DNA of 50,741 bases from Candidatus Woesearchaeota archaeon (GTDB lineage: Archaea; Nanobdellota; Nanobdellia; Woesearchaeales; SM23-78): contig JAFGRK010000035.1 of assembly GCA_016935175.1 (NCBI GenBank), forward strand, positions 1 through 50,741. The letters run 5' to 3'. Position numbers and translations under genes: made by a program. The notes under the pieces were generated by a model that ran no database searches, had not been told where the DNA came from, and saw nothing but the letters and a program-made list of their open reading frames with translations. Positions within the stretch are counted from its first letter, which is position 1; each line of letters opens with the position of its first letter. Shown piece after piece: positions 40,740-44,109 of the stretch.

Positions 40740-40817
40740 GCTGCCATCTTACTATACCTTATTTCTGATGCGCAAGTGCTCGAAACCTTTAAATTAGCAG
40801 CATCATTCCTCTCGCCA

Positions 40818-41699
40818 ATGACACTATTTAAGAAAGAAGAATTCAAGGGGATAGTTGTTCCATTGGCAACTCCATTGAAAGAAGATTATTCGTTTCACAG
40901 GCTAGCCATGGAAAGGCTTATTGAGCACGTCATTGAAGGAGGAGTTAATGGCTTGTTTGTGCTTGGTAGCGCAGGAGAGTTTCCTTTATTTGATGATGGG
41001 GAATCATTGAGCATAGTAAGGTTTGTTTTAAAGCAAACCAGCCAGAGAGTCCCTGTCTATGCCAATGCATCAAGGAACAGCACAGAGCACACCTTGAAGA
41101 TAGCCAGAGAGCTCAGGAAGGCAGGAGTGGATGCTGTAGTGCTGATGACTCCTTTCTATTATTCAGCAATAAGCCAGGATGACTTGGCAACGCACTTCCT
41201 GAGAATAGCAGAAGGCGGTCCTGCAGTTCTTTACAATCACCCCAAAACTACCAAGATAAACATTGAAGTCCCAACACTCGAACACCTCGTGAATTGCAGC
41301 AACATAATCGGCATGAAAGAAACTTCTGATGACTATGAGCGCTTCAGCCAAGTGGCTAGGCTACTGCCTACGTTACAGGGAGGGGATGATCGCTTGCTTG
41401 AGAGCATGAAAAGAGGAGGGAAGGGCGGAGTTTGCGGATTAGCAAACATTGCTCCTGGGCTTTTTGTCAGATTAATCAACGCTTATAACTCTGAAAGATT
41501 TGAGGAGGCAGAAGAATTGCAGAAAAAAATAGCTGAAATGAAGCAGACCCTATATAAGACTCCTGCCAACGCCCAGGTTGGTGTAAAGCAAGGATTAGCA
41601 TATATCGGAATCTGCCAAGCCACAATGAGGCCTCCAATGGCTCAGATAACCAAGGATCAGGCAGGGATAATTAATCAGTATCTTAGAGAGAAATTATAA
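40818..41699 (+). CDS. DapA-family (dihydrodipicolinate synthase/KDG aldolase-type) lyase
   Basis: The protein has about 293 residues: FKGIVVPLATPLKEDYSFHR, the pyruvate-binding GLFVLGSAGEFPLF, the Tyr in AVLYNHPKTT (about residue 137) and the Schiff-base Lys in IIGMKETSDDY (about 166). Family members cleave or form 2-keto acid aldols; the substrate (aspartate semialdehyde, KDG or sialic acid) cannot be assigned, and no lysine pathway genes are near. The ORF extends to 40776, but CTTTAAAT (40787-40794) is a TATA box 26 bases before ATG 40818, so a leaderless start there is chosen. Confidence 0.88.
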   Translation: MTLFKKEEFKGIVVPLATPLKEDYSFHRLAMERLIEHVIEGGVNGLFVLGSAGEFPLFDDGESLSIVRFVLKQTSQRVPVYANASRNSTEHTLKIARELRKAGVDAVVLMTPFYYSAISQDDLATHFLRIAEGGPAVLYNHPKTTKINIEVPTLEHLVNCSNIIGMKETSDDYERFSQVARLLPTLQGGDDRLLESMKRGGKGGVCGLANIAPGLFVRLINAYNSERFEEAEELQKKIAEMKQTLYKTPANAQVGVKQGLAYIGICQATMRPPMAQITKDQAGIINQYLREKL

Positions 41700-41740
41700 T
41701 ATTAACCATTAATAAATAAAACAAATAATTTCTAAAAAGT

Positions 41741-42901
41741 TTATCTATTAAAATCAGGACGCTCTGGCTGCCTGGTAACCGGCCTTGTCATATCAGTGAA
41801 TGTGTCATGGCAGTTCACTTCATCTGCCCTTACTATGCCTAGGACCATTCTTGAAAGCTTTTCACTCCAGTCATCTCTTAACCCGTCTTTTTTCCCATGA
41901 TAGCTCTTTACTGCGGAGAACAAGTGGTTTGCTGTGTGAATTACTTCCAGGCGAGGCTCATTGATATCAGCAGGCCCATTATTTTCAATATATCCTTCCA
42001 TGAATGCCTCCCTTGCCTTTTGCCTCGAATACTCTCCGTGATAAAATCCGAAAAGTGTAAGTGCGATGCCGCCTATCTCAAGATTAGGGTGAGCAGCTTG
42101 CCCGTATTCCAGGTCATAGAATCCTGAAACCAATCCGTCTGGGTCAACAAAGAAATTTCTGCTGTGAATATCATAGACGACCAATGAAGGCTTTAGTTTT
42201 CTCTCAGCCAATTCTGTGTTTGCGTATAATGTGCTTTTTTTGAAATAATCATCAATTTCCTTTAGATCGGCACTGTTAAAGTAATGCTGGAATATCTCAA
42301 GGTCCCCTTTGAAATGCCTGCCAATAATTGTTTCAAGATAATCTCCGTACTTCTCAGTTCCTGACATGATTACCGGTTTATTTCCCTCTAAATCAAGTTT
42401 TCCAAAATTGTCAAGGGGCACTGAATATGTTTTTCCATGTATTCTTCCCATAGCTTTTCCTAAGCTGCTCATGCCTTGCAAGAAGCAGCTGAATGAATGA
42501 GCATTATGGTCAAGATAATCCCTGAAAAGCTCTCCCGGCATTTTTTCAACAAGCATAACCTTGCCTTGCTCTCCTTTATCAGCAAACCCTATGACCTTGG
42601 GCGCGGGAACTCCTGCCTCGCGAACCAGCATCATGGTTGCAATTTCTCTCTCAATAGTTAATGGCCCTCCAAAATAATTATCATCTCCCCTGCCAGGGAC
42701 AGGATGCTCTCCTGATGGCAGGATTCTAAGAATCAGGCATCTTTTGTCAGTTGATATGTTGAAATTATAATGGCTTATGCCTTTAGCCCTGTCAATTTCG
42801 TTTGCATAAACTGCTTTTTCAGCGCGTCCGCTTTCGCGTAGAACCATGTTTGCCAAGTCAAGAGCTTCTTGTTCTGTAGGAATTATTTGTACCATAATCA
42901 T
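41741..42901 (-). CDS. Aminoglycoside phosphotransferase-like (APH family) kinase
   Basis: The protein has about 386 residues. The small-molecule kinase fold shows an N-lobe followed by KVMLVEKMPGELFRDYLDHN, then LGKAMGRIHG, the catalytic segment VVYDIHSRNFFVDPDG (Asp/His/Asn loop) and the DFG-like Asp in SGFYDLEYGQAAHPNLEIG. It could phosphorylate a sugar, choline or antibiotic; the context gives no clue. ATG at 42901 or, two codons on, 42895 is possible. A TATTTATATAAG box (about 42940) drives it on the minus strand. Confidence 0.82.
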   Translation of the reverse strand: MIMVQIIPTEQEALDLANMVLRESGRAEKAVYANEIDRAKGISHYNFNISTDKRCLILRILPSGEHPVPGRGDDNYFGGPLTIEREIATMMLVREAGVPAPKVIGFADKGEQGKVMLVEKMPGELFRDYLDHNAHSFSCFLQGMSSLGKAMGRIHGKTYSVPLDNFGKLDLEGNKPVIMSGTEKYGDYLETIIGRHFKGDLEIFQHYFNSADLKEIDDYFKKSTLYANTELAERKLKPSLVVYDIHSRNFFVDPDGLVSGFYDLEYGQAAHPNLEIGGIALTLFGFYHGEYSRQKAREAFMEGYIENNGPADINEPRLEVIHTANHLFSAVKSYHGKKDGLRDDWSEKLSRMVLGIVRADEVNCHDTFTDMTRPVTRQPERPDFNR

Positions 42902-43031
42902 CCCTATCTGTTATTGGGATGATGAATGAACAGCACTTATATAAATATTTCGTTTATTGACTATTAATCAGTAGTTACTAAATCCTGCTTTTTAAGTTTC
43001 AGAATAGCTTGAAGATGTTTTATTAGAAAGA

Positions 43032-43057
43032 CGGACAGCTTTCCGGGTCTCCCACAC
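43032..43057. repeat. 26-bp exact copy of the 5S rRNA 3' end (distal copy)
   Basis: This stretch is identical over 26 bases to 43806-43831, with AAAG also shared just before it (one mismatch between). It reproduces the 3' end of the 5S rRNA gene, on the same strand as that gene, 774 bases downstream of it. The pair brackets the homing endonuclease ORF like attachment sites. Flanking GACGGA and TCCGTC here can pair, so the copy could itself fold. Confidence 0.85.
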
Positions 43058-43112
43058 TAGCACTGGACATTCCGTCGTAAGGCTTTTAAAGAGTAAGGCC
43101 TATACTTTTAAA

Positions 43113-43802
43113 ATGATTTCTGAGAATTTCGCGAGATGCTTAGCAAAAATATGCGGTGACGGCAATATGAACTCAAAATATATTAGATACAGCAATACTT
43201 CTGAAATCCTATTGAATGAATTTAAGGATGACATCAGGAAAGAGTTTGGCGACGTACATTTTACAGTCGGAAAGGTCAATTCAGGCACTTCTTTTATTCA
43301 GATCCAAAAGAAGGAGATTATTGCAGCCTTTTCTTCTAATTTAGCCTCGTTTAAAAGCAATGAGATTTTCATTCCGGAATCTGTTAAGAATTCACCCCTA
43401 AATGTCAAAGTGGCTTTTGCGCGTGCTTTCTACGATGACGAAGGTTGTGCAGCCTTAAGGTTCAATGAACCAACCAGGGAATGGAAGCGAAACATAACTC
43501 TTTGCTCTAATTCATTAAGGATTCTTGAGGGAATAAAAGAGCTCTTGGCTTCTTTAGGTATATCATCGAATAGAATTTACAGGAATAGGGCTAATAGTTC
43601 CTATGATATCTCATTTATACTGGGCATAACTGGCAGAAGAAATTTGCTTCTATTCCAAGAAAAAATTGGCTTTAAGCATCCTGCGAAAGCTGCAATTCTA
43701 GATTTAATAATAAAAAGCTATGGCGCTACACCTAAAAGAAACCCATTTCTGTATGAAGAATTAAAAAAGAAAAAAATGAACCTAGCGTTCCCATTTGATT
43801 AA
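43113..43802 (+). CDS. LAGLIDADG homing endonuclease, free-standing next to 5S rRNA
   Basis: The 229-residue protein has two LAGLIDADG helices, each with its catalytic acid: FARCLAKICGDGNMN (about residues 6-20) and VAFARAFYDDEGCA (about 104-117). Two copies in one chain means a monomeric enzyme. Later blocks LCSNSLRILEGIKELLASLG and YDISFILGITGRRNLLLFQE fit the family. A TTTTAAAG box 26 bases before ATG 43113 gives its own leaderless promoter. The stop ends 2 bases before the 5S rRNA 3' end, on the opposite strand. With the repeats on both sides it looks like a self-contained mobile unit. Confidence 0.88.
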   Translation: MISENFARCLAKICGDGNMNSKYIRYSNTSEILLNEFKDDIRKEFGDVHFTVGKVNSGTSFIQIQKKEIIAAFSSNLASFKSNEIFIPESVKNSPLNVKVAFARAFYDDEGCAALRFNEPTREWKRNITLCSNSLRILEGIKELLASLGISSNRIYRNRANSSYDISFILGITGRRNLLLFQEKIGFKHPAKAAILDLIIKSYGATPKRNPFLYEELKKKKMNLAFPFD

Positions 43803-43805
43803 AGG

Positions 43806-43831
43806 CGGACAGCTTTCCGGGTCTCCCACAC
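43806..43831. repeat. 26-bp repeat, copy within the 5S rRNA gene 3' end
   Basis: This is the 5S-internal partner of the copy at 43032-43057. It covers the last helix I strand and part of the loop E/helix IV region of the 5S gene. Confidence 0.85.
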
Positions 43832-43870
43832 ATGAGTGCAGTACGCCCCGGAACGTTCGCGTGCTTAACT

Positions 43871-43899
43871 CTCACATGGGCTTAGGTTCCAAACCCAAT
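43871..43899 (-). other. Extra hairpin inserted in 5S rRNA loop B
   Basis: Between ACACAG (end of helix III) and AGTTAAGC (start of helix II 3' strand), normally almost adjacent, lie about 29 extra bases. They contain TGGGTTTGG-AAC-CTAAGCCCA (43877-43897), a 9-bp stem with two G-U pairs. It may remain in the mature ribosome or be removed. Confidence 0.75.
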
Positions 43900-44109
43900 C
43901 TGTGTTCGAAATGGGAACAGGTGAACCACGCGGCTATGACCGTCCAAGACTATAGAAATAGGGTTGATTTAAAAAGCTTTTCCTTTTTTCAGTCGTAGAG
44001 AACCTCCTATCACAACCTTTAAAAACGCTTCTTTGCTCTCTTTTCTCAATAATAATTTGTCGTAATTAACATTAAAACCATTACTTGTAGCTAAAAGGAG
44101 GTTTTTAAT

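Follow-up and report, generated by a model that had tools for sequence, protein, structure and literature searches.

A probable endonuclease-driven mobile module with a micro-intron and a replacement exon in the 5S rRNA genes of Woesearchaeota-group archaea

Bulge-helix-bulge (BHB) introns of archaeal 16S and 23S rRNA genes hold intronic LAGLIDADG genes, such as that of I-DmoI, and introns of this type are cleaved after the second base of each bulge. Replacement of part of an invaded gene is known from the mORF elements of fungal mitochondria, in which an endonuclease gene lies within a conserved gene and brings a replacement 3' part, and the native 3' part is displaced beyond it; such elements have been described in atp6 of Allomyces macrogynus, in atp6, atp9, cox2 and nad3 of Glomus sp., and in atp9 of Rhizopus (PMC3630166). 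In collaborative homing, the free-standing endonuclease F-CphI of cyanophage S-PM2 adjoins the intron-bearing psbA gene; the intron shields from self-cleavage and the enzyme mobilises the intron (PMC6083498; Zeng et al. 2009). In 5S rRNA, expansion segments are known in the helix III bulge, and the excision of some other 5S inserts has been left open (Stepanov and Fox 2021, PMC7812874). A survey of CPR genomes reported no 5S insertion of 100 bp or more (PMC11270868). We found no published 5S rRNA intron in the open-access literature searched; because the search was restricted to such literature, an earlier mention elsewhere cannot be excluded.

Here we report the analysis of a 50,741-nt stretch of DNA from a Candidatus Woesearchaeota archaeon (contig JAFGRK010000035.1 of assembly GCA_016935175.1; hereafter the window), in which a 28-nt insert divides the 5S rRNA gene and a homing endonuclease gene (HEG) adjoins it. 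We interpret this locus, together with related loci (L numbers) in other genomes (G numbers), as carrying a HEG-driven mobile module that inserts at one 5S position and that would comprise, in order, a BHB micro-intron, a replacement 5S exon 2, an opposite-strand HEG, and a right end meeting the displaced original exon 2. This interpretation as a whole, including the inferred splicing and cleavage, is in our assessment very likely correct; insertion with a replacement exon is near certain, and the doubt lies in the splicing and cleavage steps.

By analogy, the module works like the fungal mORF type, with an endonuclease gene within a conserved gene, a replacement 3' part and a displaced native 3' part, but we do not file it as a member of that type. 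Its host is an archaeal non-coding rRNA gene and not a mitochondrial protein-coding gene, its HEG lies on the opposite strand, and its junction holds a BHB micro-intron, whereas descriptions of the fungal cases examined mention no such micro-intron at the site of insertion (PMC3630166). With collaborative homing it shares a free-standing endonuclease beside an intron-bearing target gene, and also shielding and mobilisation of the intron, which were demonstrated for F-CphI and psbA and are only inferred for the 5S module. The S-PM2 system, however, pairs a group I intron with an Endo VII-type enzyme in a phage, whereas the 5S module combines a BHB intron, a LAGLIDADG enzyme and an rRNA gene, plus replacement and displaced exons. 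The archaeal 16S and 23S systems likewise have a BHB intron in an rRNA gene and a LAGLIDADG enzyme of the I-DmoI fold, but the host of the module is 5S, its introns are 22-31 nt long, and its HEG lies outside the intron, across the replacement exon. The original prediction, made from the window alone, had contrasted the HEG with the intron-borne homing genes of archaea; an intron-like insert is, however, present here too: at the insertion point lies a 28-nt insert of BHB type, outside which the HEG is located.

The 5S rRNA gene occupies positions 43,804 to 43,947 on the minus strand of the window and is the sole 5S gene of this genome. It was recovered by a permissive search with RF00001 (29.8 bits, E = 9e-4, with a gathering score of 38), and an Rfam search of the window at the gathering score found no 5S; the 28-nt insert is responsible for the low score. 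Compared with the intronless 5S genes of the same genus, the window gene has 28 additional bases between GAACACAGA and AGTTAAGC (43,871-43,898). From the RF00001 match and this comparison, exon 1 (TTGGACGG...GAACACAGA) is assigned to 43,899-43,947, and exon 2 (AGTTAAGC...CTGTCCGCC), which completes the 5S gene and which we interpret as supplied by the element, to 43,804-43,870, both on the minus strand. Predicted removal of the insert gives a normal 116-nt 5S, and this product shares 96.5% identity over 113 bases with the 5S of the congener G006. In G002, the assembly breaks within the 5S gene (contigs 35 and 46, with overlapping ends), perhaps reflecting strain variation at the site.

The insert (UUGGGUUUGGAACCUAAGCCCAUGUGAG; 43,871-43,898, minus strand) has the helix, bulges and hairpin of a BHB-type micro-intron. 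A 4-bp helix joins CACA of exon 1 to UGUG near the 3' end of the insert, the two bulges are of 3 nt each (GA|U and AG|A), and the inner hairpin has 7 bp (UGGGUUU/AAGCCCA). We scanned GTDB genome contigs for 5S genes with 20-50 additional bases at the same site, and found them in Woesearchaeota only, plus L085. The latter locus (MHMT01000023.1) is filed as Portnoybacteria, but is woesearchaeal by its 5S and neighbouring genes, pointing to a binning or labelling error. Matches to the intron pattern in Bacilli were rejected as ordinary 5S genes with a chance GTTAAGC further on. Together with genome searches, the scan gave 18 loci with an intron at this site, 22-31 nt in length among those seen; all genomes are metagenome assemblies. 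The 4-bp Watson-Crick helix between exon and intron is formed in each of the 18, with compensatory changes that give four helix types (CACA/UGUG, CUCG/CGAG, CACG/CGUG, and ACCC/GGGU), whereas shuffled introns form such a helix in 0.5% of cases and swapped exon/intron combinations pair in only 2 of 154. In an alignment of 12 sequences, 98.1% of cells are paired, both sides have changed in seven of the nine pairs, and the covariation score is 0.596 versus 0.280 for shuffled sequences, with none of 500 shuffles as high. Bulges of 3 nt, with a canonical 5S product from the BHB cut positions, are found in 16 of the 18 loci; in L063 and L125, where the 3' bulge is longer (5 nt), there is no clean canonical product and the predicted splice is therefore non-canonical. 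A gene for the splicing endonuclease EndA is present in the window genome (PF01974, E = 1.5e-28). The insert appears removable by the cellular RNA-splicing machinery, although splicing is inferred and there are no RNA data. A single large BHB intron covering the module up to the displaced exon was rejected, as no matching helix lies ahead of that exon. Micro-inserts of ~28-35 nt were also observed elsewhere in 5S helix III, in L128 (G258), L127 (G274), L092 (G015), L131 (G271) and L130 (G267), with two inserts within one 5S gene in both G258 and G274; these are possibly further BHB introns in the order.

The most serious alternative is that the insert is a permanent expansion segment of the 5S rRNA, kept in the ribosome as in Thermoanaerobacterium thermosaccharolyticum, in which case the module would simply bring along an expanded exon resistant to its own enzyme. 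Retained segments are known from the helix III bulge (PMC7812874), the insert forms a hairpin, and the 5S gene, being single-copy, must work either way. We nevertheless regard retention as unlikely: complementarity to exon 1 is not required of an expansion segment, but at all 18 loci the 4 bp that precede the 3' bulge pair with exon 1 and covary with it, and cutting at the BHB positions would give a canonical 5S at all but two of them. The known expansion segments resemble the insert in their location in the helix III bulge, but those demonstrated stay in the RNA, and the reported archaeal cases are haloarchaeal only (PMC7812874). The BHB covariation argues against retention in the mature 5S, in the absence of RNA data, and the micro-intron remains our preferred interpretation of the insert.

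The HEG (43,113-43,802, plus strand) encodes 229 amino acids, is convergent with the 5S gene and abuts its 3' end. Its description in the original prediction, as a two-motif LAGLIDADG gene adjoining the 5S on the opposite strand, was borne out. The product passes the cut-off of the Pfam family LAGLIDADG_3 (PF14528, E = 2.8e-12) and contains two motifs, CLAKICGDG and AFARAFYDDEG, whose closing acidic residues are invariant; homologs lie at the same position in other genomes. A sequence-profile search of solved structures with this protein gave no match, but a Foldseek search of the PDB with its AlphaFold2 model (mean pLDDT 87, pTM 0.84) matched I-DmoI, I-Tsp061I and intein endonucleases with E-values of 1e-8 to 1e-11 (about 1e-8 for the first two), in agreement with an I-DmoI-like fold. 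By profile and modelled fold, the product meets the definition of a monomeric two-motif LAGLIDADG homing endonuclease; site-specific cleavage is inferred, without enzyme data.

A TATA-like box (GGCTTTTAAAGAG; 43,081-43,093, plus strand), recognised from its sequence, lies 20 bp ahead of the ATG of the HEG, and such boxes also precede the HEG start in L085, L063, L078 and L081. This placement is consistent with a leaderless promoter, for which there are no expression data. Upstream of the box, we identified a conserved module element, GCACTGGACATTC (43,060-43,072, plus strand), whose core CACTGGACA recurs in HEG loci and whose exact sequence occurs only once in the window genome. Is the CACTGGACA-containing element an operator or a functional right-end element? 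At the right ends of L078 (1810-1910), L081 (1045-1140), L122 and L063, ~130 nt of conserved sequence lie between this element and the displaced exon; no ORF was seen in this stretch, which is common to several families.

On the far side of the HEG, the predicted 26-bp exact copy of the 5S end was confirmed (43,032-43,057 = 43,806-43,831). It has the same orientation as the 5S end; with one mismatch allowed, it reaches 31 bp and takes in the T-run that follows the 5S (43,027-43,057 versus 43,801-43,831; blastn E = 4e-11 in the downstream 2.5 kb). Judged by the relatives, on which its identity rests, the repeat is an eroded remnant of the displaced original exon 2 (43,027-43,057, minus strand), of which only nt 40-70 remain. 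Complete displaced exons 2, starting at the intron insertion site, are found beyond the HEG in L078, L122 and L144. The displaced exon of L078 has 70 bp, 98.6% identical to the near copy; that of L081 starts 3 nt inside, from nt 4, and is 95.6% identical over 68 bp; that of L143 is degraded, and in L085, L063 and L145 it is lost. It is this second copy, persisting in L078, L081, L122, L144, L143 and partly in the window, that supports the assignment of the near copy as a replacement exon.

In none of the same-genus 5S loci scanned was the 3' end repeated downstream, and among ~35 intronless 5S loci scanned, a single one had a short partial copy, of another kind: in L095 (G067), which has no endonuclease gene, a 34-bp stretch 68 bp downstream is an 88% identical copy of the 5S 3' end. 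The possibility that the far copy in the window is the native 3' end, with CCGTC pairing with GACGG, was dropped, as the congeners show CTGTCCGCC-type ends. Its assignment to the nearby APH and DHDPS genes was also dropped, these being an unrelated flank difference. The DHDPS-family and APH-family genes (40,776-42,901) stand between the module and the gene order that is native downstream in the congeners, apparently as a difference separate from the module.

A scenario in which the 5S tail was first duplicated locally in tandem, and a HEG then landed by chance between the copies, would suit the near-identity of the two exons in L078 and the short duplication without a HEG in intronless L095. 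It is nonetheless very improbable, since in three separate genomes the intron site is where the duplicated part starts, and HEG, intron and duplication co-occur in several families. In L122, moreover, the near and far exons differ in their stem-loop (GTACTTACGTAC versus GTGCTCAGCAC) at compensating loop positions, as if the two copies derived from two sources, which is expected of a replacement exon and a displaced original.

The same HEG subfamily (44-72% identity) is found in the same position and orientation beside an intron-bearing 5S gene in L085, L063 (G154, from another family), L078, L081, L122 (G473), L143 (G519) and L145 (G528), where it is a pseudogene with stop codons. A profile search for this subfamily in 353 genomes of the order (E < 1e-60) identified it in eight, in seven of which it abuts an intron-bearing 5S; in the eighth, G501, the gene is truncated by the contig end. 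No member was found at any site other than an intron-bearing 5S in these 353 genomes, and none in the six same-genus relatives. An intact HEG is missing from the vicinity of about half of the intron-bearing loci, and most of these have a weak relic or none; intron and HEG are therefore not strictly linked.

Element-free sites were also identified. A comparison of the 5S loci of relatives, proposed in the original prediction as a search for an empty site, found one in G271 (L131), where exon 2 is joined directly to the neighbouring nucleotidyltransferase gene, and exon 2 with its flank is collinear over ~400 bp (80-87% identity) with the displaced exon 2 and flank of L078, L081 and L122. G274 and G162 keep the intron, and a relic of 12-14 codons of the HEG 3' end lies between their 5S and the nucleotidyltransferase gene. 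The upstream genes and the 5S of G209 align with those of G154, the alignment showing a gap where G154 has the insert, and G004 has the flanking genes of L085 without the intron or the HEG. The loci form a decay series in which the displaced exon passes from full length to remnant to loss, and the HEG from intact gene to pseudogene to short relic. From the displaced exons, element-free sites and relics, insertion, restoration and decay can therefore all be seen. In L035 (G003) and L081 (2234-4894), intein-like insertions were observed in the UDP-glucose dehydrogenase gene adjoining the 5S.

Since the displaced exon begins at the intron site and G271 lacks the element, the element is delimited as the micro-intron, the replacement 5S exon 2 and the HEG, inserted in the middle of the 5S gene. 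The insertion point falls between the paired As of GAACACAGA^AGTTAAGC, within the bulge of helix III. The original view, of an element that invaded the 5S gene and rebuilt the 3' part of that gene, is thus supported by the displaced exons of L078, L122, L144 and L081 and by G271, but entry at the 3' end, as first supposed, is not. At the level of sequence comparison, we regard as established the insertion point, the replacement and displaced exons, the element-free sites, the tight association of HEG with intron, and the decay. An integrase-type element, in which the direct repeats are att sites produced by a site-specific recombinase and the endonuclease is a passenger, can hardly be sustained: direct repeats of the 3' part of a gene with function restored do resemble integration at tRNA genes, but no integrase is present, as originally noted, no protein family other than that of the HEG being recognised from the 5S to the remnant, the insert at the crossover point does not repeat the sequence on its flanks, and the module spreads with one endonuclease subfamily found at the 5S site only.

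Endonuclease-driven mobility fits the architecture of the module and its lack of any other recognisable gene, although there are no cleavage data. In the proposed mechanism, the endonuclease would cut the uninterrupted, highly conserved 5S site, and repair from a donor would copy the intron, exon 2 and the HEG into the cut gene. Where the right side is joined to the broken end and not recombined, this one-sided repair would leave the old exon 2 displaced. Restoring exon 2 alone would recreate the cut site, leaving the enzyme to cut its own host; the micro-intron would prevent this by hiding the rebuilt 5S from re-cutting. EndA would then excise the intron from the transcript, giving the predicted junction GAACACAGA-AGUUAAGC, and the 5S rRNA would stay normal. 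Under this model, the window's site without the element would read exon 2 followed directly by TTTCTAATAAAAC, and the window element would be intact save for its right end and ~39 nt of the displaced exon, which are presumed deleted.

We consider it probable that these loci represent an undescribed type of mobile element of Woesearchaeota-group archaea, which invades the 5S gene as a combination of spliceable micro-intron, replacement rRNA exon and free-standing HEG. If so, the inserts would be the first known 5S rRNA introns, and the module would offer a new answer to the self-cleavage problem of replacement-exon elements; we have not found described elsewhere an arrangement of a replacement exon with a micro-intron that blocks recreation of the cut site. 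The comparative data provide a concrete, testable model of a 5S intron. Intron-bearing 5S genes score below the Rfam threshold and can escape annotation. The invaded gene is essential, the host is a tiny-genome archaeon, and the invading HEG is a selfish DNA-cutting gene. The decay series, from full element through pseudogene and relic to intron alone, is a natural record of the homing cycle, and suggests that tiny BHB introns may be leftovers of lost endonucleases.
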